Assembly (NCBI RefSeq): GCF_003026215.1
Contig: NZ_PYOC01000001.1
Location: 1,178,001 to 1,242,000, forward strand
Direction: 5' to 3'
DNA: 64,000 nucleotides
Source of the DNA: Photobacterium indicum
Lineage (GTDB): Bacteria > Pseudomonadota > Gammaproteobacteria > Enterobacterales > Vibrionaceae
Below, in pieces: positions 35,140 to 62,387 of the stretch. A model generated the notes under the pieces. The model was not told where the DNA came from. It ran no database searches and was given only the letters and a program-made list of their open reading frames with translations. The position numbers and the translations under genes were made by a program. Within the stretch, counting starts at the first letter, position 1; each line of letters opens with the position of its first letter.

Positions 35140-36423
35140 TTAGTAACCTGTTTTTTCAAGTTCTTTCGCTTTGTGAATCATAGGGGTAATGGTTGAGCCT
35201 TGAACAATAATCGAGAATACAACCACGGCATAAGTCATTAATACGATAATTTCTTTAACATCTATTTCTGGGCTGTACCCTGTTGCAATGCCTGATGGAA
35301 TTGCCATCGCCATCGCTAGTGCTAAACCACCACGTAAGCCACCCCAAGTAAGAATTTTGACAGATTCTGGGTTATACGTGCGGTATCGATTAAAGCCTAG
35401 ATAAGCTATTTTTACACTGAGGTAGCGACTGCACAGCACTAGTGGAATCGCGATAGCGACTGCAACAATATCGATATAATGAAAACTGAATGTCAGCATA
35501 ATTAAACCGATTAACAGGAACAGAATGGCGTTTAGAGTTTCGTCTGCCAGTTCCCATAGGTGATTGAGTTGGTGTGATTCATCTTCAGCTATACTGTTAC
35601 GTGTCCAGTTTCCAATCATGATGCCAGAAACAACCATAGCAAGCGGTGCAGACACCCCTAAGTGCTGACCGACAACATAACCACTTGTTGGAATTAGCAT
35701 GGTGAGGATCAAGCGCATCATTCCGTCGTGTGGATGCTTGATTAAGTAATGAAAAACTAAACCCAGCACTAAGCCGAAAGCGATACCGCCTAATGCTTCA
35801 TGAGTGAAAAGTGCAATTGTGCTAGATACCGTGGGGGCACTTTCCCCAAAAGCGACTTCAAACAAGGTCACAAAAATGACTAAGCCAATACCATCATTAA
35901 ATAGTGATTCGCCTTCGATTTGAGTTGAAATGCGTTGTGGTGCATTCATCTTTTTGACAATGGCTAATACAGCGATTGGGTCGGTAGGTGAAATAAGTGC
36001 ACCAAATAAACAACAATGAATAAAGGCCATGTTGATGCCGACTAACGAGAAGAGTAGCCATAACACCGTACCAATGAAAAATGTTGAAAAAAGGGTACTG
36101 GCAAGTGCAAGAATGGTAATTTCGAATTTTTGATCTTTAAGGTGCGATAACTTTATATTTAATGCACCGCCAAAAAGTAGAAATCCAAGAACACCTTTTA
36201 ACAAGAAGTCATCAAATTGAATGTTTTGAATTATGTTAATCAGCTCGTGTTCTTCATTGAGCGGAATGTAATTCATATTACTTAAAAACAGTAACGCAAG
36301 TGAGATGATGACAGACCAGCCTGTAATAGCGATGGTAGTTTGAAACTTCCCCACACGGTGGTTGAACATCGAGATGAAGACGGCAACTGCAGCGATAATG
36401 CAGATGGTGTCGTAAACTGACAT
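35140..36423 (-). CDS. Na+/H+ antiporter of the CPA1 (NhaP-like) family
   Basis: A 427-residue protein with about 12 membrane spans. Ion-binding motifs of the CPA1 family are present: ALISPTDPIAVLAIVKK and EGESLFNDGIGLVIF (the ND pair), with the Arg-containing GGLRGGLALAMAMAIP. No long cytoplasmic tail. It extrudes sodium (or potassium) in exchange for protons, fitting a marine host. Confidence 0.9.
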   Translation of the reverse strand: MSVYDTICIIAAVAVFISMFNHRVGKFQTTIAITGWSVIISLALLFLSNMNYIPLNEEHELINIIQNIQFDDFLLKGVLGFLLFGGALNIKLSHLKDQKFEITILALASTLFSTFFIGTVLWLLFSLVGINMAFIHCCLFGALISPTDPIAVLAIVKKMNAPQRISTQIEGESLFNDGIGLVIFVTLFEVAFGESAPTVSSTIALFTHEALGGIAFGLVLGLVFHYLIKHPHDGMMRLILTMLIPTSGYVVGQHLGVSAPLAMVVSGIMIGNWTRNSIAEDESHQLNHLWELADETLNAILFLLIGLIMLTFSFHYIDIVAVAIAIPLVLCSRYLSVKIAYLGFNRYRTYNPESVKILTWGGLRGGLALAMAMAIPSGIATGYSPEIDVKEIIVLMTYAVVVFSIIVQGSTITPMIHKAKELEKTGY

Positions 36424-42812: not shown

Positions 42813-43205
42813 TTATAATACTTGCACACGGTCTACTTCGATTTCAGGGGTATTTCCACCTTCGTATTCACCAAACAATCGTACTTTTGTCGTTGCATCA
42901 ATTACTTGTGGTAAATGAATATCATCATCTAGTTCAACTTGAATTTCTTTCGTGCCATCACTGAAAATGAATGTATCGGCATTGATTTGCTTAATCAACT
43001 TACCTTCAACAACTGCATTTCGCTCTGTAAACATGCTTGTGCTGTCGAGTAGTTCGGCAACTGTTACCGTATCAATCGGGCCTGAGTAAGAAATAACAGC
43101 GCCTTTCTGTTCATTATGATCGCCTGCAAAAGCGAGTGTTGGAACTAAGATCATTGCAGATGCGATTGCGATAACAGTATTTTTTACAGAAATTAATTTA
43201 GTCAT
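42813..43205 (-). CDS. YgiW/YdeI-family stress-tolerance OB-fold periplasmic protein
   Basis: About 130 residues from the ATG at 43205 (preceded by AAGGAGA). A signal peptide (LISVKNTVIAIASAMILVP, cleavage near LAFAG) and a BOF domain (GPIDTVTVAELLDS, EGKLIKQINADTFIFSDGTK, IQVELDDD, VRLFGEYEGG). Family members aid resistance to peroxide, cationic peptides and metals. Confidence 0.88.
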   Translation of the reverse strand: MTKLISVKNTVIAIASAMILVPTLAFAGDHNEQKGAVISYSGPIDTVTVAELLDSTSMFTERNAVVEGKLIKQINADTFIFSDGTKEIQVELDDDIHLPQVIDATTKVRLFGEYEGGNTPEIEVDRVQVL

Positions 43206-43300
43206 GAGTTCGTCTCCTTGTTTTGATGTTGCTATTAAACAACACTTCAACTGAACCATTCGTGAGGCGGTTATTCAGATTTCGTTCATATACTCATTAT

Positions 43301-44143
43301 TTAGATATTATTTGCTAATGGGTAGGTGAAAAATAATAAATGCACCATGTTAAAACCAAAGTGAATAGCAATCGCGTAACTTAACTTTCCTGACCAGTAA
43401 TAGGTCAAACCATAAAGAAGACTGGCTAAACTCGCGACAACAATGAATAGTGGGCCACCTGCGAAATGTGCAGCACCAAATAAGAGGCTTGCGATGCCAA
43501 TACCAACAAGAGGATTGAAACGTTGAGTCAGTAATCGCTGAATGTAGCCACGAAAGAGTGCTTCTTCTGCAACACAAGTGAATAGCAGGTTGTTTAATGC
43601 AAATACCCACCACCAACTAGGCACTGATAATTCAGGTTTTACTAAACTTAATACGAGTGGAACCACTGGCAACAAAATGAAGCTAATAGCTAATATCGAT
43701 ATTTGTTTTGAAGAAAGTATGTTTCGTTTTCCCAACATAGTTGGTACTAACAGTAATAAACCAAAGAAGATCATTGGTTTATCTAAGTTTAAATAAAGCG
43801 TAAATGGAATACTTTCGGGGCCTGTAATCACCTTATCAAGTACTAATAGGTTGTTGAAGCCAGGTATAAGATGTAATACCAAGGCTAGACACCACATAAC
43901 AACCAAGCAGTGGCATGCTACTTTCCATTTTCCCTTAGCTTCTTTTGCTAGTGCAGAAACTATTAAACCAGCGCTAATGGCTAATACACCCACGAAATTT
44001 ACGTTATTGAAATATAAGGCACTGGCAAAAGTGATAACAAGAAGGTGTAGCCAGTATCGAGGTTGAATAAACGCAGTAATAACCGTTGCTCCAAGCAGCA
44101 ACCAAGTTATAGCTTCTGGTAATAAGTTGTTGGGAAAAGTCAT
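43301..44143 (-). CDS. CPBP-family intramembrane metalloprotease (CAAX/Abi type)
   Basis: 280 residues, about eight membrane spans. Motif 1 EEALFRGYIQRLL has the paired Glu and Arg; motif 2 FGAAHFAGG and motif 3 AIAIHFGFNMVHL carry the metal-binding His. Members include Rce1-like and bacteriocin-immunity proteases. The target here is unknown. Confidence 0.85.
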   Translation of the reverse strand: MTFPNNLLPEAITWLLLGATVITAFIQPRYWLHLLVITFASALYFNNVNFVGVLAISAGLIVSALAKEAKGKWKVACHCLVVMWCLALVLHLIPGFNNLLVLDKVITGPESIPFTLYLNLDKPMIFFGLLLLVPTMLGKRNILSSKQISILAISFILLPVVPLVLSLVKPELSVPSWWWVFALNNLLFTCVAEEALFRGYIQRLLTQRFNPLVGIGIASLLFGAAHFAGGPLFIVVASLASLLYGLTYYWSGKLSYAIAIHFGFNMVHLLFFTYPLANNI

Positions 44144-44358
44144 AGTTAATCAATGTGTTAGTGTAAGAATACAAATGATAACAATTTTATGTCTGATGTG
44201 AAGCGTTTAGTGCCGATAAACCGTTGAATTGTTTGAATCAAAATCTCCGCTTTAGAAAAATAGGGTCATTTAATAACGAGGTTCGCTGCTAACAGAGCAT
44301 ACATTTTTGAGCTAAACAGATAATATATTGATGCGTTTAGCAATGAGACAATATACCA

Positions 44359-44937
44359 GTGAGTATTCAAGATAATTTTCAAGGAATAGAACTTATATTA
44401 GGTGGTGCTAGGTCGGGCAAAAGTAGCCTTGCTGAGGCTCTTGCGGAATCATCAGGCCTCACTGTTACTTATGTTGCGACAGCAACTGCGGGTGATGATG
44501 AAATGACGGCTCGAATTGAACAGCATAAAGAGCAGCGCCCTCACCAATGGCCAGTAATAGAAGAGCCATTATATTTGGCTGAGGTTATTCGTACCCACAG
44601 TAAAAAGGGCACATGTTTATTAATCGATTGTTTAACACTCTGGTTAACGAATTGCCTATTTGGCACTGTTGAACAATCTGAGCATAACGATCACCATAAG
44701 AACGCTGGCTGGTCTGATCGAAAGGAAGGCTTTTTAAAGGCACTGATTGAAGCTGAAGGGCGTGTTATTCTGGTCAGTAATGAAGTAGGACAAGGCATAG
44801 TGCCGCTTGGTGAAGTATCAAGGCGCTTTGTCGATGAGAGTGGTTGGTTACATCAAGCCATCGCAAAACAAGTTGATCGTGTTGTATTTGTGACTGCTGG
44901 TTTACCTCAAGTGTTGAAAGGTCCTGCGTTAAATTAG
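44359..44937 (+). CDS. cobU: CobU, adenosylcobinamide kinase / adenosylcobinamide-phosphate guanylyltransferase
   Basis: 192 residues from a GTG at 44359. Kinase P-loop LILGGARSGKSSLAEALAES; further CobU blocks DCLTLWLTN, VSNEVGQGIVPLGEVSRRFV and DRVVFVTAGLP. Acts in cobalamin nucleotide-loop assembly and cobinamide salvage. No cobalamin riboswitch was seen upstream. cobC and a cobQ fragment follow, so this is a small cobalamin gene block. Cobalamin is the cofactor for the eut system in the same window. Confidence 0.93.
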   Translation: MSIQDNFQGIELILGGARSGKSSLAEALAESSGLTVTYVATATAGDDEMTARIEQHKEQRPHQWPVIEEPLYLAEVIRTHSKKGTCLLIDCLTLWLTNCLFGTVEQSEHNDHHKNAGWSDRKEGFLKALIEAEGRVILVSNEVGQGIVPLGEVSRRFVDESGWLHQAIAKQVDRVVFVTAGLPQVLKGPALN

Positions 44938-45008
44938 CTTTCTAGTATTCACAGAGTTTGTGCAGGAATAAGTGCGATGTAGTTATAGTCGTTAAGGAGA
45001 TGTAGAAG

Positions 45009-45629
45009 ATGACAACACAGCAAACACGGATTGATATATTACGTCATGGGTTGCCAGAAGGAGATGGCTGCCTAAGAGGGCATACAGATTTTCCAATTAC
45101 CTCGACAGGTTTAAGTCAAATGGCGACGGCAATCGCTGATCTTGATAGTGTAGATGTGGTCGTTACTTCTTCGTTGCAACGGTGTAGTAATTTTGCTCAA
45201 TTAACGGCCAATCAGCACTCTGTTCCTCTTCATCAGCTCGATTGCTGGAAAGAAATGGATTTTGGTGACTGGGACGGACAATTACAGAAAACGTTATGGC
45301 AAGAACATAAGGAAGTCTTAACTCGCTATTGGCAAAACCCTTGGTTAGAAACCCCACACGGTGGTGAAGCATTAGTGGATTTTGACAAACGGATTCATCA
45401 AGCTTGGTTAGATTTAGTTGAACAGCACAAAGGTAAAAAAATACTGCTGGTATCGCATTCAGGTGTAATGCGACAGCTGATGCGTATTTTATTAGAAATG
45501 CCAGAGAATGCGAGTTATCTACACCGAATACAATTGCCTTATGCTGCACGTTACCGTGTCACTATTTTTCATGATGAACAAGGAAAAGATTGGCCTCAGA
45601 TCCAATGGCCAACACAGCAGCAATTTTAG
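45009..45629 (+). CDS. cobC: CobC, alpha-ribazole-5'-phosphate phosphatase (histidine phosphatase)
   Basis: 206 residues. Phosphohistidine motif ILRHGLPEGDGCLRGHTDFP with RHG, the later GDWDG, ETPHGGEALVDF and the second His motif LLVSHSGVMRQLM. The family removes the phosphate from alpha-ribazole-5'-phosphate or from the adenosylcobalamin phosphate in B12 assembly. Adjacent to cobU and the cobQ fragment. Confidence 0.9.
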   Translation: MTTQQTRIDILRHGLPEGDGCLRGHTDFPITSTGLSQMATAIADLDSVDVVVTSSLQRCSNFAQLTANQHSVPLHQLDCWKEMDFGDWDGQLQKTLWQEHKEVLTRYWQNPWLETPHGGEALVDFDKRIHQAWLDLVEQHKGKKILLVSHSGVMRQLMRILLEMPENASYLHRIQLPYAARYRVTIFHDEQGKDWPQIQWPTQQQF

Positions 45630-45734
45630 ATTTTCAGTATTGTGTACCCATTTACTACTCGTATTAACGAGCGCTTTCATTATATATGCTGAAAATAAAC
45701 CTTAAATATTAAACGAATACATAATGAGAAACAG

Positions 45735-45923
45735 ATGCAACTAACCACGCAAGCTTTAATGGTTCAGGGAACAACATCAGACGCAGGTAAAAGTGTACTT
45801 ACAGCGGGTTTATGCCGTGTACTTGCGCGAAAATGTATAAAGGTAGCGCCATTCAAGTCTCAAAATGTGGCGGCTGTATCTATTGCATTGCATCGAACAC
45901 CATTTAGTTATAATTATTGCTAA
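45735..45923 (+). pseudogene. cobQ: 5' fragment of cobQ/cbiP (cobyric acid synthase), cut by the prophage
   Basis: The first 46 codons are a perfect CbiP-type beginning: [19 protein letters not shown] is the P-loop NTPase motif, then [18 protein letters not shown]. Similarity ends at codon GCG (45870-45872). After that the frame runs into unrelated residues and stops at 45921-45923. The missing ~440 residues (glutaminase and most of the synthetase domain) should lie on the far side of the inserted element, outside the window. CbiP amidates adenosylcobyrinic acid a,c-diamide at four side chains. Confidence 0.9.
45852..45872. other. Candidate attL core at the cobQ-prophage junction
   Basis: Chromosomal cobQ coding similarity ends inside TTCAAGTCTCAAAATGTGGC and prophage DNA begins. 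The crossover core should be in this ~20 bases. The duplicate at the right end (attR) is not in the window, so the exact core cannot be fixed here. Confidence 0.6.
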
Positions 45924-45980
45924 GTTATGCCTTAAATAACAGTGGCTTATGAAATATTTTTTGATTTTATAATGACAGTA

Positions 45981-46046
45981 AGTACCAATTTGTAATACCC
46001 TAAAACAACGAGATTTAAACAAGAAAGTGTACCAAGTGTGTACCAA
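45981..46046. repeat. TACCAA repeats between attL and int (candidate integrase arm sites)
   Basis: GTGTACCAA occurs at 46027-46035 and again at 46038-46046, 11 bases apart, with a related AGTACCAAT at 45981-45989. Short direct repeats in this position are typical of arm-type integrase or Xis sites. A role is inferred from position only. Confidence 0.4.
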
Positions 46047-46071
46047 ATCTTGATGTGTTTTAGGGGTGGCA

Positions 46072-47322
46072 ATGAATATCACAGATGCTTTTTTGAGAAA
46101 TGCTGTAGGTAAACCATATAGCGGTGCACCACAAATTGCGTATGGGAAAGGGCTATCTATTCGCATTAGTCCTAAAGGTAAAATTACTTGGGTTCTTAGA
46201 TATAACTTCAATGGTGCCCCTGCTCGGGTGAAGCTGGGGGAGTATCCAGCCATGAAGATCAAAGAAGCTCAAGACCAACGTGATGAATACAAGGCTTTAG
46301 TTTCTAAAGGCATCGACCCGAGAAGCGATCACATCAAACTTGGTGTTAACTCACCCAAAACCATATCGGCACTTATTGAGTATTATGTCGAACACTCACT
46401 GATGGAAACTAATAAACAATGGCAAAGTATAAATAGTTTGCTACAACGCTCTGTTGTTCCTCATATTGGTGATTACAAGGCTGGTGACATTGAGCTTTCT
46501 GATTATGTGCGTATGTTTCAGATCGAGAGAGAAAGAGCAGGGGCAAAACATGCTACTCGTTTGCTGTACCGCCTAAAGAGTGTTTTGAATTACGGTATTC
46601 GACATGGTTTTCTCAAGCAAAATCACTTAAACCATTTAAAGGGACGTGATGTTGGAGAAATAAGTAAACCAGTGAAGCGTAAACTTACCGAAGTTGAAAT
46701 TGGTGCCATGTGGGTTTGTATTGATACGCTTCCGTATCATGAGACAATGAAAAACTTATTAAAACTCACTATGATTTTTGGTTCTCGAATTAGTGAGCTA
46801 AGACTGTCTGAAAAGTCACATTTCGATTTTGATAAAATGGTTTGGACGGTCCCAGTTATTAATAACAAGATGGGGAGTAAGCTAGAAGCTGAAATAACTC
46901 GTCCTATCCCTAAAATGGCAGAGTCGATCATTAGGCAGCAAATAGATATAGCTCCTGATTTTAAATATATGTTCCCTCGCTATTATATTGTTGCTGATAA
47001 GCCTATTGATCAAAAAACGCCATATAGACCATCATTGGTATTGGGCCAAATGATGTCAGGTTTAGGTTACACAGAAACTCGTAATCATGACATGCGTAGA
47101 ACAGCGAGAAATGCATGGGAACAACTCAGGTTTCCGCCCTACGTAAGTGAAACAATGCTAGGTCATAAAGTCCACAAAGGTGTTATGGCGCATTATGTGG
47201 ATTATGATTATTTAGAAGAACAGCGTGAATGCTATGACATATGGTGTGAATATATCCAAAAGAAAGTAAGTGATTTTTTAAGTAACCAAAGACACATTTC
47301 ACAGCTAGGATCTGCATCATAA
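46072..47322 (+). CDS. int: Tyrosine recombinase / phage integrase (P4-like, DUF4102 N-terminus)
   Basis: 416 residues. N-terminal SAM-like/DUF4102 domain with PYSGAPQIAYGKGLSIRISP and the arm-binding type KLGEYPAMKIKEAQ. Catalytic core: first Arg in FGSRISELRLS, HxxR in NHDMRRTARNAW, LGHK, and the Tyr nucleophile in MAHYVDYDY. The start is the ATG at 46072 with AGGGG five bases upstream. It reads away from attL, and the interval to cobQ holds possible arm sites. It would catalyse insertion and excision in cobQ. Confidence 0.93.
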   Translation: MNITDAFLRNAVGKPYSGAPQIAYGKGLSIRISPKGKITWVLRYNFNGAPARVKLGEYPAMKIKEAQDQRDEYKALVSKGIDPRSDHIKLGVNSPKTISALIEYYVEHSLMETNKQWQSINSLLQRSVVPHIGDYKAGDIELSDYVRMFQIERERAGAKHATRLLYRLKSVLNYGIRHGFLKQNHLNHLKGRDVGEISKPVKRKLTEVEIGAMWVCIDTLPYHETMKNLLKLTMIFGSRISELRLSEKSHFDFDKMVWTVPVINNKMGSKLEAEITRPIPKMAESIIRQQIDIAPDFKYMFPRYYIVADKPIDQKTPYRPSLVLGQMMSGLGYTETRNHDMRRTARNAWEQLRFPPYVSETMLGHKVHKGVMAHYVDYDYLEEQRECYDIWCEYIQKKVSDFLSNQRHISQLGSAS

Positions 47323-54410: not shown

Positions 54411-54570
54411 AGTCCTTCATTTCAATAGCCATGATTCTTTCTTGCAGTTCATTTGAAGAACAACTTCCATCCCACTTTAAATCACAATCTTTGCAGCCAA
54501 TAACATTGCAGGTTTGAGTTATCACTATTCGCCAGCGTTCGCGTAGGTCGTTAAGTTCTTGGTTATCCAT
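54403..54570 (-). CDS. 55-residue Cys-containing small protein
   Basis: Begins MDNQELNDLRERWRIV and has four Cys spaced as CNVIGCKDC then C (CSSNE), possibly metal-binding. It overlaps the stop of the preceding gene (54563) by eight bases and the start of the following by a few. Confidence 0.5.
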   Translation of the reverse strand: MDNQELNDLRERWRIVITQTCNVIGCKDCDLKWDGSCSSNELQERIMAIEMKDYE

Positions 54571-54805
54571 CGTTCACCATTCCTTTATATTGGTTCAGGC
54601 AATATTCGATTTCACCTCTGTATAAGCTATGTTCATTCTTAATGAAGAACGTGGGATTTTTTATTTTTATCAATTCGAGAAGGATGAGGTCAGCACTTTG
54701 CTTGTTGAGTTCCCATGGGAAAGCATCTATGACTTTATTGCGGATAGCGTAGGCTTTTTTCTTTTGCTGTACTCTGTAACCTCTTAGAACTGGAAGCTTT
54801 ACCAT
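54563..54805 (-). CDS. Small phage early protein, unknown
   Basis: 80 residues, basic then mixed (KLPVLRGYRVQQKKKAYAIR; then FPWELNKQSADLILLELIK). No family recognised. Part of a tight leftward operon with the next ORFs overlapping. Confidence 0.55.
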   Translation of the reverse strand: MVKLPVLRGYRVQQKKKAYAIRNKVIDAFPWELNKQSADLILLELIKIKNPTFFIKNEHSLYRGEIEYCLNQYKGMVNDG

Positions 54806-54821
54806 TTATTAGCCTCATGAG

Positions 54822-55157
54822 TTAAAAGGGAACGTTGCTTGTTGAGCACTTAGGACAACACCAATTATGCTCTATCAAACAGAATTCATACATACAATAA
54901 TCACAGATTTGTATGAGTATTTCTTTTTCGGGTTTGTTGGATTTGTAGAACTCAAGAGCTTTGAAATAAAGCCCGAGGGGGATAATCCACAATCCATGTT
55001 TCAATTCAATGAAGTGTGATAATTCAGGGGTTTCTACGTGGTTAATAATATAAGGTTGTTTAGTTGAGCAACTTTTCACAACCTCGTACTTATGAGCTTT
55101 CAAAAACTCAATAAAAGAGCCCCACAAATGAGGCTCCATTCTTAGTTGTATAGTCAT
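54822..55157 (-). CDS. Small phage early protein with C-terminal zinc ribbon
   Basis: 111 residues. The C-terminus CDYCMYEF...CCPKCSTS forms a zinc-ribbon. The rest is alpha/beta with no known family. It follows the Gp157-like gene after eight bases. Confidence 0.6.
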   Translation of the reverse strand: MTIQLRMEPHLWGSFIEFLKAHKYEVVKSCSTKQPYIINHVETPELSHFIELKHGLWIIPLGLYFKALEFYKSNKPEKEILIQICDYCMYEFCLIEHNWCCPKCSTSNVPF

Positions 55158-55669: not shown

Positions 55670-58107
55670 GCGACTGATTCCTTTTTGGCGGCTTGCAAGT
55701 TTTCAGAGGCGTTATTGAAGGCAATATCCACATTTTTAATAGCCTTTGATTTCTTTTGTTTTTGTTCGTCAGTACCAGTAGGTAGGGCTGATAATATTGC
55801 CAGTGATTTTTGTTTGAGAATGTTTATCTCAGAAAGATTAAGCGCGGTTTTCATTTCTTCGACAAAACCACCTGCTTGGGTAAGAGCTTTTTGCGTAATT
55901 TCTTGCGTTTGCTCTATCGTGCGAACTTGCTTATCAGCTGCTTGGGCTACTTCTGCGCGGTGTTGTATAGTCGTATCATCGTAAGAGCCAAGATAAACAT
56001 CGGCACATATACCAGTGAGTGACATTGCTTTACCTAAAGCATCCGAGAGTGATTTCTTTTCACATTCATCGTCATGAACAAAATAACCACCTTGCGCCAT
56101 GTAGAGCTTCTTGGTATCGCCATATGAGGTAAGCGTTGCTTTAGCACCTTCGTGCATGTACCAAAATTCAATTTCGCACTTATGAACTTGAGTAAATAAT
56201 TCTGAAATACTGCCATTCATGATTATTGGAGCGCCTTGCACTGTCCATTCACGTATGACTTTGTAACCCCAACCAATACCAACTGGCCCCCATATTTCAG
56301 TCGCTTTCTGTATTCGGTATTGGGTTTTTATTGATAGGCGATTGTTATTATCAAGCTTGGTAAAATTAAGGTCTGTTTTAAAACCTTTTGCCCATAAGCC
56401 CATGTTGGGGTTTTCAATCAGTTCAGGGGAGAGCTCAATAACTGTTGGTTTTTCCGTTTCTGCATTTCTGCTTTCGTTCTCCGCTGGTGGATCTTGTTTA
56501 AGATCTTGCGGTTGTTCGTTTGTATTCTGCGATTTCTCTTGATCAACTTGTTTTTCCTTGGCTGGTGGTAAGCTTTCCGGCTTTTCCACTTTAACCTTAG
56601 GTTGTTCGTTGTCAGGTTTGTCATTTACATTTTTAACCTGATTACCTAAAGGATCTGTTTTCGGTGGCGTTTCCTGTTTTGTATCGTCATTGGAGGCGGG
56701 TTTGTCTGTATCTCCAACGCTTGTGATGCAAAGTGAGTCATGCTTTTTAACTGGCTTTTTAATACATTCATCTTTAACGAATGCGCGGAGCATTCTAAGA
56801 TTAAGCATCGTTTTAACGGCTGTGTTTGCATCGTCCCACTCAGTATCAACAAAAGCTTTTATTGCATATTCAACATCTATGTTTTTATCAAGCTCACCAA
56901 ATACAGCCATTAACTTTTCGCCCATTTCCTCGTATTGCTCTTTTGAGTAATCGGCTTTATCTAATCCAGTTAATATCCCGTAAGCTCTTTCTTCCCAAAT
57001 GGTGGCAGGGGTGTAAGCTGGAGCTTCTTTAAATACCTTTGCAACGCTGTTTACTTTTCGCTGCATTTCTTCTGATATTAACGATCCCGCTTTATCTAAG
57101 TTAATAACAATTTGATGGCTTATATTTGTATCAAAAGTTTCTACAGCATTTCGTTTAAAGAACTTCATGCCTTCTTGCATTTCTTTTAACTCGTAAAGCC
57201 AATTTCCGACCATCCCCATTGCATGGGTAATTGCGTTCTTTCGGGTTGATTTTGCATCTATCGAAAAATCTCTAACGTTGCCTTTATCTTTAGTTCTATC
57301 TTCGGTGTTTTCAAGTTGGTAAGAAAAGAACCATTCATTAGGTTTTTTTTCTATAACAGCTAATTGAGCAGAAAGGGAATCTGTTATTTGCAGTAAGCAA
57401 ACATCAATATCAATTTGTCCTTCAAGTGTTGAGCCTATTTGATCATCAATACTTAGTTGATCTTCGCTTTCATCATCGATTTCAAGTTGGCTGAGTATTT
57501 CCGTTTCAAAGTCGTAACTCATAACCTCGTTGGCAAAAGCTTGATCGCTTTCTGCTCCGTGTTCAGCTTGAAACTCTGCAATGTTATTGATGGTTTCTAC
57601 TGCGGTTTGTAAGGCTTCCTCAATGTTAGGGTATTCACCATTATCATGACTGGTCGGTTTAACTATTGATTGCGGTCCTGACATGTAACGGTATCCGTAA
57701 ACAAAAACATCTTTCTTTGCTTCGAGTGCGGCAATTTCCGCAATGTTATCGTTTAGCGTGAATGATGCTCGAAGTAAGCCTTCTGTTTCTTTCGGATAGA
57801 ATCCAGAGCTATTGACGGTTGGCCACTCTTTATCATCTTCAACTACTTTTTCGTTTTCAGCTTCTAAATCACTCGACTCATCAACGATAGTAAGCTCGTT
57901 ATATTCCTCTTCGGTGATTTTCTTTAGCGCTGGAATTTGGAAGTATTCAGAGTTGCCGTGTTCGTCTGCGGCGGCTAATTCACCCCAAACAATCTGTTTA
58001 CCCTCTGCCATAGTGTTTGCTACGACTGGAATGTTAATAATGATTTCACCATCTGGGTGTTTGGTTTTTTTTGAGCGACAAGATGCGATGAAATGCTTAA
58101 TAGCCAT
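55666..58107 (-). CDS. Large probable single-strand annealing-type recombination protein with long N-terminal extension
   Basis: 813 residues. The C-terminal ~220 residues (GPVGIGWGYKVIREWTVQG; KKSLSDALGKAMSLTGICAD) have the motif pattern of the ERF/Rad52-like annealing proteins: a GWGY core and an ALKKAxSLxG-type helix. The first ~500 residues are of mixed charge and contain an acidic region and a long Pro/Glu/Lys-rich linker (around residues 475-545). The N-terminal block resembles nothing I can name; a RecE-like nuclease role is possible but its catalytic motifs were not identified. Gene order next to a Gp157-like gene supports recombination. Size is far beyond a normal annealing protein (200-350). 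GGAGAAA precedes the ATG. Confidence 0.65.
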   Translation of the reverse strand: MAIKHFIASCRSKKTKHPDGEIIINIPVVANTMAEGKQIVWGELAAADEHGNSEYFQIPALKKITEEEYNELTIVDESSDLEAENEKVVEDDKEWPTVNSSGFYPKETEGLLRASFTLNDNIAEIAALEAKKDVFVYGYRYMSGPQSIVKPTSHDNGEYPNIEEALQTAVETINNIAEFQAEHGAESDQAFANEVMSYDFETEILSQLEIDDESEDQLSIDDQIGSTLEGQIDIDVCLLQITDSLSAQLAVIEKKPNEWFFSYQLENTEDRTKDKGNVRDFSIDAKSTRKNAITHAMGMVGNWLYELKEMQEGMKFFKRNAVETFDTNISHQIVINLDKAGSLISEEMQRKVNSVAKVFKEAPAYTPATIWEERAYGILTGLDKADYSKEQYEEMGEKLMAVFGELDKNIDVEYAIKAFVDTEWDDANTAVKTMLNLRMLRAFVKDECIKKPVKKHDSLCITSVGDTDKPASNDDTKQETPPKTDPLGNQVKNVNDKPDNEQPKVKVEKPESLPPAKEKQVDQEKSQNTNEQPQDLKQDPPAENESRNAETEKPTVIELSPELIENPNMGLWAKGFKTDLNFTKLDNNNRLSIKTQYRIQKATEIWGPVGIGWGYKVIREWTVQGAPIIMNGSISELFTQVHKCEIEFWYMHEGAKATLTSYGDTKKLYMAQGGYFVHDDECEKKSLSDALGKAMSLTGICADVYLGSYDDTTIQHRAEVAQAADKQVRTIEQTQEITQKALTQAGGFVEEMKTALNLSEINILKQKSLAILSALPTGTDEQKQKKSKAIKNVDIAFNNASENLQAAKKESVA

Positions 58108-58802: not shown

Positions 58803-59159
58803 TTATCTCTTTTCTAAAATAATCTTCATTGCTTCATCAAGAGCTGCTTTCTCAACTCTCAATAGCTCGTCATCATTCAAACCAAGCTTATCAAGCGTGT
58901 CTTCAAGGTGACTTAGCTTTAATAGTTTTACGGTACTCTTTTCTGGTGAGCCAGACCCAGTACTAAGCCAGTTTATATCAACGTTTAAGCACTCCGCCAA
59001 CTCAACAAGCTTGGTTGTGCTCTTTAGAGCGCCGCTTTCTATTTTATTGATAGTAGCTGGTGTTACGCCAATTAATTTGGCTAGAGCTTTTTGTGATAAC
59101 GCAGGATTAACCTGCGTTCTTGCCCATTTTGTACGCTCAGCAAATGTATTTAGGTTCAT
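58803..59159 (-). CDS. CI-like phage repressor (short HTH_XRE protein)
   Basis: 118 residues. N-terminal XRE-type HTH (LSQKALAKLIGVTPATINKI, ESGALKSTTKLVELAECLNV) and a short C-terminal helical segment, with no LexA-like autoprotease domain. So induction would not be by RecA-driven self-cleavage, and an antirepressor is expected. Divergent from a Cro-like gene. Its ribosome site (GAGGA) lies inside an operator. Confidence 0.82.
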   Translation of the reverse strand: MNLNTFAERTKWARTQVNPALSQKALAKLIGVTPATINKIESGALKSTTKLVELAECLNVDINWLSTGSGSPEKSTVKLLKLSHLEDTLDKLGLNDDELLRVEKAALDEAMKIILEKR

Positions 59160-59231: not shown

Positions 59232-59276
59232 AACTTTAGTTAATTTATTATTGTTTTTGGTTAATTGTGGAAATTT

Positions 59277-59486
59277 ATGGAATTACTAAAAGAACTTGAT
59301 AAGTCAATGAGCCGCCTTGAAATAGCAGAAAAGCTTAATTGTAAGCCAGCGGCTTTGAGTAAGTGGATGAATGGGAAAACCAAACCCAGCTCAAAACACA
59401 TACTTCATTTATCTCAATTGATTGGTGTTAGTGCTGAGGATTTATTGATCGATTTATACCCTGAACAAAGTGAGAGTAAGCAATGA
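59277..59486 (+). CDS. Cro-like HTH protein
   Basis: 69 residues from ATG 59277 (the TTG at 59265 is less likely). HTH: SRLEIAEKLNCKPAALSKWM, NGKTKPSSKHILHLSQL. Divergent from CI, first gene of the rightward operon, as Cro. Its stop overlaps the next start (ATGA). Confidence 0.75.
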   Translation: MELLKELDKSMSRLEIAEKLNCKPAALSKWMNGKTKPSSKHILHLSQLIGVSAEDLLIDLYPEQSESKQ

Positions 59487-59747: not shown

Positions 59748-60668
59748 ATGTCAAGAAATCATGACATAAGGAAATTACTTTTTGTTGATAAACCTTTGGT
59801 TGTAAATCCTAGGTTAGCTAGTGAAATCGGTTTGAATGAAGCGATAGTTTTACAGCAAATTAGCTATTGGATTGATCGTGCTCAGTATGAGTATGAAGGT
59901 AAAGCATGGATGCATAAAACTGCTGATGAGTGGGAGGTCGAATTTCCGTTCTGGTCAATCCCTACAATCCGTAGAGTATTAAAGTCACTTGAGAAGTCAA
60001 AATACATAAAGTCAGACAGGTTAAGTTGGAAATTTTTCAGTAATAAAATGGACCAAACAGCTTGGTATTCCTTGTGTAGCCCATGTGATCAAGTTGACAA
60101 CATGCAAGAATCACAACAAGAAATTGCAGGTGATCAACTTGCGCACTTCACATGTGATCAATCTGCGCACTTCACATGTGATCAATCTGCGCACTTCACA
60201 AGTGATCAGATTGATCACTTGTTAACAGAGAATACAACAGAGAATACAACAGAGACTACAGAGCTATTTTCGTCGCAGAATTCTTCTGCCGACAACCTCA
60301 AGCCAAATGCTGTTATTCAAACTCCGTTAGGAAAGAAATGGGGCAGGGCTGATGACCTCACAACGGCTCAGTGGATTCACAAGCGGGTGCTTGAAGTTAA
60401 TCCTGTAGCGCCTGATCCAAATTGGTGTGAATGGGCTAACGATATTCGATTGATGAATCAATCAAAAAAATACTCATATCGAGATATTTGCGATTTATTC
60501 AACTTCGCAAATAAACATCACTTCTGGGCTGAGAATATCCAGTGCCCTAAAAAATTACGTAAGCAGTGGGACACACTTACTGCTCAGATGGGAACGAATA
60601 AACCAGTTCGCCAAGGTGAAATCGATATTTACAGCAAGGATTGGGCTGATAACGGATTAGGGATGTAG
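59748..60668 (+). CDS. O-like replication initiator containing the origin iterons
   Basis: 306 residues. N-terminal winged-helix type (RLASEIGLNEAIVLQQISYW, FPFWSIPTIRRVLKSLEKSK) as in phage replication proteins of the lambda O / DnaD-like class. Middle: an 8-residue repeat of CDQSAHFT type (from ~bases 60130-60220) and an ENTT repeat, which at DNA level are direct repeats. C-terminal domain (YRDICDLFNFANKHHFWAEN) is similar to a DnaD-like or helicase-loader-interaction part. It is followed by a P-like gene, matching O-P layout. Confidence 0.78.
   Translation: MSRNHDIRKLLFVDKPLVVNPRLASEIGLNEAIVLQQISYWIDRAQYEYEGKAWMHKTADEWEVEFPFWSIPTIRRVLKSLEKSKYIKSDRLSWKFFSNKMDQTAWYSLCSPCDQVDNMQESQQEIAGDQLAHFTCDQSAHFTCDQSAHFTSDQIDHLLTENTTENTTETTELFSSQNSSADNLKPNAVIQTPLGKKWGRADDLTTAQWIHKRVLEVNPVAPDPNWCEWANDIRLMNQSKKYSYRDICDLFNFANKHHFWAENIQCPKKLRKQWDTLTAQMGTNKPVRQGEIDIYSKDWADNGLGM
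60130..60220 (+). repeat. 24-bp direct repeats (iterons) inside the O-like gene, candidate phage origin
   Basis: Units at 60130-60153, 60154-60177 and 60178-60201 share GTGATCAAtCTGCGCACTTC with one or two base differences; a fourth, partial unit starts at 60202 with GTGATCAGATTGATCAC. Each carries a TGATCA palindrome, and five GATC sites lie within about 85 bases. Iterons within the O gene mark the lambda-type origin. Confidence 0.7.
60224..60259 (+). repeat. Three 12-bp repeats next to the iterons
   Basis: AACAGAGAATAC twice and AACAGAGACTAC once, in tandem and in frame. Encodes an NTTE-type run. It could be only a flexible protein linker or part of the origin as the melting-prone side (AT-rich). 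Confidence 0.6.
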
Positions 60669-60670
60669 CT

Positions 60671-61357
60671 ATGAAATCAATAAGCGAGCTTACTCAAGAA
60701 AACCCGATTGTTAGAAACTACGGTACACAACATGAGATCGATAGTCGTCATGAGGCAGTCCCTCGAGTAACAAGTTCTGATGCAATAAACCATATCAATT
60801 TTATTTTTGCTGAATTATGCGCGGCTTTTCCTGCGTGGCGTAATACCTTTCACAATCAAACAGAGCTCAATGATGCAAAGCGTTCATGGGTGAAGGGATT
60901 GATTGAGGCTGATGTGACGGATTTGGTACTAATCAAAAGCGGATTGAAGAAAGCGAGGGCCTCAGAATCTGATTTCTTCCCATCTGTAGGTAAATTCATT
61001 TCGTGGTGTCATTCGAATGATGATTTTTTGTTACCTGATGCAGAGTTCGCATTTCGATCATTGCCAATCTACATGGCTGGATTTAGAAATGAGATACCAG
61101 CACCGACCTTAGCTGCATTCGATCAAATTGGTAAACCTGCAATCCGCAAAAAAAACGAGCGTGATGTTTTCAAGCTTTTTAAATACTCATACGAAATCGT
61201 GTGTAAGAAAGTGAAATCAAATAAGCCCATTGATGACCTTCTAATTAAGCCGCTGCCAAAGCCTAAATCTAAAAAGCTATCTCCAAAAATGGTTGAGGCA
61301 AAACGTAGCCGTGTTTTAGACCAGATTAAAGCTCGTAAAAAGGAGTTATGGGGATGA
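60671..61357 (+). CDS. P-like replication protein (helicase loader type)
   Basis: 228 residues. Phage replication protein P layout: N-terminal (INHINFIFAELCAAFPAWRN), middle (FFPSVGKFISWCHSND), helical C-terminus rich in basic residues (KPKSKKLSPKMVEAKRSRVL). In lambda, P binds the host DnaB. It starts two bases after the O-like gene and overlaps the following ORF. Confidence 0.75.
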   Translation: MKSISELTQENPIVRNYGTQHEIDSRHEAVPRVTSSDAINHINFIFAELCAAFPAWRNTFHNQTELNDAKRSWVKGLIEADVTDLVLIKSGLKKARASESDFFPSVGKFISWCHSNDDFLLPDAEFAFRSLPIYMAGFRNEIPAPTLAAFDQIGKPAIRKKNERDVFKLFKYSYEIVCKKVKSNKPIDDLLIKPLPKPKSKKLSPKMVEAKRSRVLDQIKARKKELWG

Positions 61358-61992
61358 CTCAATCAATTCAAAAGCGAACAAAACCCAATGAGATTTTAGC
61401 TGTTATTGGTGGCGGTGGTTTTGTCAGCTATGCAACGAATGAAGATCAGGAACAAGCCAAGAATCTTACTGGTCGTGTCGTGGCGATTAAACCGAAGAGT
61501 AAGGCTAGAAACTTGAAGCATCATCGTAAATTCTTTGCACTGATGAAGCTTGGTTTTATGTATTGGTCTCCGTATATGCGGTTAGTTAGTGAGCCAGAGG
61601 ATTGGATTGCGCGAGAAGTTGCCCGTGAGTTCTGCAAGCAAGCAGGTAAGCCAGAGTTGTTCGATCAGTTCGGTAATGACATAGCTCAGCATGTGATTGA
61701 CCGAATGGCGAGAAAGCGCTCACGTCGTGCTGATCCAGAGGCATATAAGTGTCCTGATAATTATCGCCATAAAATCATGGTTGACGCTGGTTTTTTTGAA
61801 ACGGTCACATTGCCAAATGGTGGTGTGATTAGACGCCCCTGGTCTGTCTCTTTTGAAAATTTGGCTCAGGAAGATTTCAATAAGATTTATAAAGGTTGCT
61901 TTAACGTTGTATGGAGTGAAAGTCTTTTTCAGATTTTTGACGATGAAGCTGAAGCGGAAAATGCTGTAAATCAGCTAATGAGTTTTGTATGA
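61354..61992 (+). CDS. DUF1367-type phage protein
   Basis: About 212 residues, DUF1367 by sequence (KSKARNLKHHRKFFALMKLG, VSFENLAQEDFNKIYKGCFN). Such proteins lie in the nin region of lambdoid phages. The ATG at 61354 overlaps the P-like stop and has AGGAG at better spacing than the ATG at 61348. Confidence 0.8.
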   Translation: MTQSIQKRTKPNEILAVIGGGGFVSYATNEDQEQAKNLTGRVVAIKPKSKARNLKHHRKFFALMKLGFMYWSPYMRLVSEPEDWIAREVAREFCKQAGKPELFDQFGNDIAQHVIDRMARKRSRRADPEAYKCPDNYRHKIMVDAGFFETVTLPNGGVIRRPWSVSFENLAQEDFNKIYKGCFNVVWSESLFQIFDDEAEAENAVNQLMSFV

Positions 61993-62387
61993 AGCAGTCA
62001 AGAAGCTATCAAACAACTCAAGCTGAATTGTACTTCAACCGATTTATACGACTTAGAGATTATGGCGAACCATGCCCTAGTTGCGGCCGTTATTTTCGTT
62101 TTGAAGAAATGGATGCTGGGCATTACCGATCAAAAGGGGCGGCTCCTGAACTCCGATTTAATGAGGATAATGTTCATGCTCAGTGCCGTGATTGTAATAG
62201 TGGCTTTGCATCGGGAAATCGTATTGCGTATCGACTGGCGTTAATTATAAAGATTGGTATAAAGCGAGTAGAAGCACTTGAGTTGTACCAAGGACCAGTG
62301 AAATATGATGTAACTGACTTGTTTGAGATAAGAAAGGAATACGAAAGAAAGTGTAATGAGTTAGAAGGGGAACTGATGTATGCATAA
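61989..62387 (+). CDS. ninG: NinG-like (Rap) recombination protein
   Basis: 132 residues. NinG zinc/HNH-like features: PCPSCGRYF, DAGHYRSKGAAPELRFNEDN, VHAQCRDCNSG (the cluster of Cys and His used for metal). In lambda, NinG promotes recombination. Starts by ATGA overlap. Confidence 0.88.
   Translation: MKQSRSYQTTQAELYFNRFIRLRDYGEPCPSCGRYFRFEEMDAGHYRSKGAAPELRFNEDNVHAQCRDCNSGFASGNRIAYRLALIIKIGIKRVEALELYQGPVKYDVTDLFEIRKEYERKCNELEGELMYA

Follow-up and report, generated by a model that had tools for sequence, protein, structure and literature searches.

A lambdoid prophage inserted in the 5' part of cobQ in Photobacterium indicum, with a predicted replacement gene start at its far junction

The window analyzed here is a 64,000-nucleotide stretch of the Photobacterium indicum genome under study (G000), covering positions 1178001–1242000 of contig C1. 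On its plus strand lie the host gene cobU (44359..44937; Pfam CobU, 195.9 bits) and a host histidine phosphatase gene (45009..45629; Pfam His_Phos_1), called cobC-like from its position between cobU and cobQ, followed by a reading frame of 62 aa (45735..45923, plus strand). The N-terminus of this frame is that of CobQ/CbiP: in a profile search of the genome's contigs it matched positions 1–42 of TIGR00313 (E 9.1e-15), and its residues 1–47 were 94% identical to a 49-aa CobQ start. Family likeness ends near codon 46, and the frame consists of the native start and first codons of cobQ followed by a short phage-coded tail (cobQ' at attL). Adjoining this insertion in the 5' part of the host gene is a tyrosine integrase gene (46066..47322, plus strand; Pfam Arm-DNA-bind_3, Phage_int_M and Phage_integrase; PHROG integrase), preceded by two GTGTACCAA(A/G) repeats (46027..46047, plus strand) that are probable arm-type sites. 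The TIGR00313 match and the integrase domains confirm what the initial annotation had described, a CbiP N-terminus broken near codon 46 with a tyrosine integrase next to it, and support its proposal of a prophage insertion in the 5' part of the gene.

Farther into the element, we found a CI-like repressor (58803..59159, minus strand; Pfam HTH_3 and Phage_CI_repr, the latter barely above cut-off) and, opposite it, a small HTH protein that is Cro-like by position (59265..59486, plus strand; Pfam HTH_3). These are followed on the plus strand by an O-like replication protein and a P-like helicase loader (two ORFs, 59748..61357; PHROGs) and by NinB-like and NinG-like genes (two ORFs, 61348..62387; PHROGs), and the prophage also holds a terminase large subunit match. 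Given the repressor, O-like, P-like, NinB, NinG and terminase matches, the element, which also carries its integrase, is predicted by gene content to be a lambdoid temperate phage. Six of 16 proteins had no PHROG match, four of them near the right end and two from locus L003. One IMG/VR record was 100% identical to the prophage in both stretches compared, and a second was 96–98% identical in the matching parts, with the left stretch matching over the first 1.36 kb of 4.2 kb. No cobQ start was found in IMG/VR loci L086 and L087, the far ends of which both stop inside the element.

The prophage's right end falls beyond the window, at C1:1273492 on the same contig. The initial annotation had proposed reading attR beyond 64 kb, and a phage-borne start was indeed found there, with the first codons rebuilt in frame: from a TTG, the frame runs through the rest of cobQ for 490 aa without a stop, so that the element gives the gene a new in-frame 5' end at this other junction. 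The rebuilt cobQ matches positions 1–476 of 477 of TIGR00313 with 517.9 bits (cut-off 309.9; whole-genome search). Two TIGR00313 matches were detected in the genome, the attL fragment and the full-length attR copy; a whole-protein CobQ search returned the same two, and the rebuilt cobQ is the only full-length copy found. Across 117 bp, the phage-borne 5' end is 77% identical to the native one, with which it shares one exact block of 22 bp (45835..45856 at attL, plus strand), which marks the crossover region without fixing the exact point. The two copies of this block are 49,657 bp apart.

A prophage within a coding gene is also the arrangement at comK in Listeria, an example of active lysogeny in which the gene is broken until excision. 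By that account cobQ would stay silent in the lysogen and come on only upon excision, in a switch run by the phage, and the position of the insertion in the 5' part of cobQ, with an integrase adjoining, is what such a switch would look like from the left junction. Both the silenced gene and the switch had been put forward from the left junction. Unlike comK, however, cobQ is rebuilt in the lysogen, and the complete 490-aa frame present at attR with the prophage in place leaves both claims unsupported on the initial annotation's own terms. We therefore rejected the gene-off reading and regard active lysogeny here as very improbable.

A comparison with a relative lacking the prophage, also proposed at the outset, could be made with the close relative G027, whose cobC–cobQ site is uninterrupted, although such empty sites in relatives are not in themselves a sign of excision. 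Since the frame is intact both in the lysogen and in this empty site, the promoter and the N-terminus are what may change. As read from these junctions, the prophage swaps the 5' end of cobQ and parts the gene from cobU–cobC.

The integrase occurs at 76% identity or more in three of 52 same-genus genomes (G000, G102, and G105; next best 35%). All three copies adjoin a cobQ 5' fragment, and all three genomes have a second, full-length cobQ. The integrases at cobQ in G102 and G105 are 76% identical to that of G000 and are accompanied by their own replacement 5' ends; in G105 a single contig holds both the cobQ fragment and the rebuilt cobQ, at a distance of 34.7 kb, and in G102 the two fall on different contigs. 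Among the proteins scanned, 9 of 10 from the G105 element matched enzyme, rhodanese, or permease families (one had no match), and all eight from the sides of the G102 element matched enzyme, peptidase, or transport families; no phage family matched any of these 18 proteins. Judged from this scanned part of their genes, the G102 and G105 elements are probably islands with metabolic and transport genes. In a fourth genome, G014, 8.8 kb separate a cobQ fragment from a full cobQ, and there is no match to the G000 prophage integrase. Directly after its cobQ fragment lie two reverse ORFs (L037:4965-6012) that by eye resemble an IS630-type transposase in pieces, and these pieces may have removed the integrase.

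Across the family, 21 of 329 genomes had at least two matches to the CobQ start; when these and G020 were re-run, cobQ frames shorter than 80 aa were confined to G000, G014, G102, and G105. A 55-aa cobQ frame in G215 was rejected as an insertion, because frame changes are what split cobQ there. Elsewhere in the family, two genomes of a different genus each have two cobQ copies on one contig with frames of ~500 aa, ~109 kb apart in one (G131:C3:225290 and C3:334341) and ~189 kb apart in the other (G312:C2:1166654 and C2:1355350). On a viral contig, L099, an integrase of 56% identity adjoins a cobQ fragment, with no second cobQ start on that record. Taken at sequence level, the cobQ site is used repeatedly: the integrases there are related, and the replacement 5' ends that accompany them match.

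This recurrence, within a single contig in G105 and across two in G102, bears on whether the P. indicum arrangement could be an artefact of assembly or a pseudogene that a dead element left behind. The assembly is a draft of 39 contigs, but both junctions fall inside a single contig of 1.32 Mb, and the integrase and replication genes are open frames, which argues against a dead element. We consider either form of this explanation extremely improbable.

The four elements differ in the longest exact block common to attL and attR, which measures 22 nt in G000, 39 nt in G014, 60 nt in G102, and 17 nt in G105. Those of G000 and G105 span approximately codons 34–46 counted from the native start; relative to the G000 block, that of G105 lies further right and that of G014 further left. 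Because the blocks differ in place between elements, a single core is not fixed. The earlier departure of G014 indicates that its left end may have been altered, and the 60 identical nucleotides in G102 suggest exchange between its two cobQ 5' copies.

We were able to parse 50 of the 52 same-genus cobQ loci, G012 and G029 being dropped because the motif pattern was not matched. Five of the 50 (G000, G014, G020, G102, and G105) have a TTG eight codons upstream of the P-loop motif and no ATG further up; 44 have an ATG at −9 to −14 relative to this motif, and G035 has a TTG at −10. Two to three copies of a TGTACCAAA repeat occur upstream of cobQ in G000, G014, G102, and G105 and in none of the 46 other parsed loci. 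Before the rebuilt cobQ of P. indicum there are three copies of the arm-type repeat (L004:15372-15408). GTACCAA repeats stand directly before the integrase in L099 and in each of the 13 sister loci from outside the genus, so the repeats before the integrases fit arm-type sites, to which the integrase would probably bind. By eye, the Shine-Dalgarno match before the TTG is poor in G000, and GGAG- or GAGG-like sequences are present in G102 and G105. Translation of the rebuilt gene could alternatively start at an ATG, common to the native genes, that precedes the P-loop motif by two codons.

A −10-like TGNTA(A/T)GAT motif is present at −162/−163 in all four elements and at −106 in G020; among the 45 loci without an element-type start it was found in four, at other distances. 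A scan for consensus sigma-70 promoters gave no plus-strand site before the rebuilt cobQ, a result that is in line with active lysogeny, which the rebuilt frame otherwise opposes. It is quite possible, though we place it somewhat below even odds, that the frame is rebuilt and its expression altered, with cobQ removed from cobU–cobC and transcribed at another level or under phage control. In 24 of the 50 parsed loci, those with cobC in view apart from G020, 43–179 nt separate cobC from the cobQ motif, compared with 49.7 kb here, and at dusA expression was lower after integration (PMC8409611). The −10-like motif at the same distance in 4/4 elements fits steady expression equally well.

Most differences are silent, both among the 5' ends carried by elements and in comparisons of these with the native ends that they replaced. 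For seven of eight pairs compared over 75 nt, none of 5000 random-substitution trials gave so few amino-acid changes, and for the closest pair (G105–G102) 14 of 5000 did. Because of this mostly silent divergence, the four element-borne 5' ends look as if they are maintained as cobQ code, which also speaks against active lysogeny. The same pattern is expected of pieces taken from host genes by recombination, and the data support, without proving, selection on the element.

Two further loci look, from their sequence, like scars of a lost element. G020 has the element-type TTG without the TGTACCAAA repeat, and 587 nt from the end of its cobC match to the P-loop motif. In G028, a native ATG is followed by a stretch identical to the G000 phage-borne end at 100 of 105 nt (vs. 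81 of 105 for G027), with all five differences from the G000 end within the first 30 nt. The G028 cobC–cobQ gap (L094:2005-4947) contains one piece of 547 bp that matches window positions 54458–55003 at 94.7% identity and another of 207 bp that matches 56289–56495 at 98.1%. A repeated cobC tail follows these prophage pieces, and one simple loss therefore does not explain the G028 order.

Integrase matches at E 1e-80 or better were found in 16 of 329 family genomes, the three within the genus and 13 outside it at 43–50% identity. The cobQ start motif is absent from all 13 sister loci outside the genus (L132–L144); nine of them have GTGTTGCTT before the integrase and a tenth the variant GTGCTGCTT, and for these reasons the sister integrases use another attachment site, a second and unnamed one. 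Among named phage records, 415 match the integrase (best 47%), and the cobQ start motif is absent around the integrase in three of the four best-matching records. A search of the phage collection with the cobQ start gave six records, named Listeria phage or Bacteriophage sp. and lacking annotation, and a search of the plasmid collection gave 183, of which some among the 20 matches listed are large second chromosomes. In a Vibrio cyclitrophicus phage, a 45% identical integrase is followed by three genes annotated as Lamassu-family (L097:1431-4706).

With respect to the role of cobQ itself, four cobJ/cbiH-like matches were detected in the P. indicum genome. All four fall below the family cut-off, and "cobalamin synthesis" may thus mean salvage in this organism, a suggestion based on a single family and not on a pathway test. 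Loss of riboswitch control was considered as a consequence of the insertion and rejected: in window positions 36000–64000 all Rfam families stayed below their gathering scores, a relaxed scan of 43000–46100 gave one match, other than a cobalamin riboswitch, and the single cobalamin riboswitch detected genome-wide belongs to a different contig.

Overall, we conclude with a probability of about 0.88 that the prophage enters cobQ, that its attachment site supplies a 5' end, and that a complete cobQ is kept. In this rebuilding of cobQ, a 49,657-bp temperate prophage of lambdoid type would enter the gene at approximately native codons 34–46 through its own tyrosine integrase, its attachment site bearing a copy of the cobQ 5' end. 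Integration would reduce the native start to a short, dead frame at attL and fuse the phage-borne start in frame to the remaining cobQ at attR, such that the host keeps a complete gene. Both junctions, the full-length frame and the repeated use of the site with matching 5' ends are read directly from the assemblies. We infer that translation initiates at the TTG, that transcription comes from the element, that the element excises, and that the rebuilt CobQ is active.

Related arrangements have been described at two other genes. According to two reports (PMC4482086; IMEVchUSA3, PMC8409611), dusA-associated integrases of prophages and islands form one family and replace the 5' end of dusA in frame. 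The cobQ elements resemble them in that prophages and cargo islands share an integrase family, enter one host gene at its 5' end and replace that end with in-frame sequence of their own; they differ in their target, and in that dusA excision and expression were bench-tested in those papers, whereas the cobQ case is read from sequence. SXT at prfC likewise supplies a new 5' end to the gene it enters, as described in the same source (PMC8409611), but SXT is conjugative and targets prfC, whereas a lambdoid phage and islands are found here at cobQ. We found no report of cobQ/cbiP as an integration site in the literature searched, a search limited to one library; the cobQ mention in PMC3218068 is a legend naming a CobQ/CobB/MinD/ParA-domain protein. 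By analogy, the mechanism would be one already known at prfC and dusA, and cobQ appears to be a new address for such insertion.

A more speculative proposal, which we think rather unlikely as a whole, is that cobQ has become a permanent docking site through an integrase clade common to metabolic islands and phages, and that the elements take over the gene. The gene would pass from the cobU–cobC unit to a promoter of the element, and integrase sites lying between that promoter and the start would let induction or the amount of integrase tune corrinoid use by the host; recombination between the two 5' copies would leave hybrid or element-derived starts after loss of the element, as in G028 and G020.

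The rebuilt cobQ would add a metabolic gene to the sites at which a mobile element mends the gene it enters. It also warns against taking a truncated N-terminus next to an integrase as a sure sign of gene loss. With filled, empty, and likely scarred sites in one genus, the cobQ locus would allow tests of how gene starts in attachment sites evolve and are exchanged with the host.
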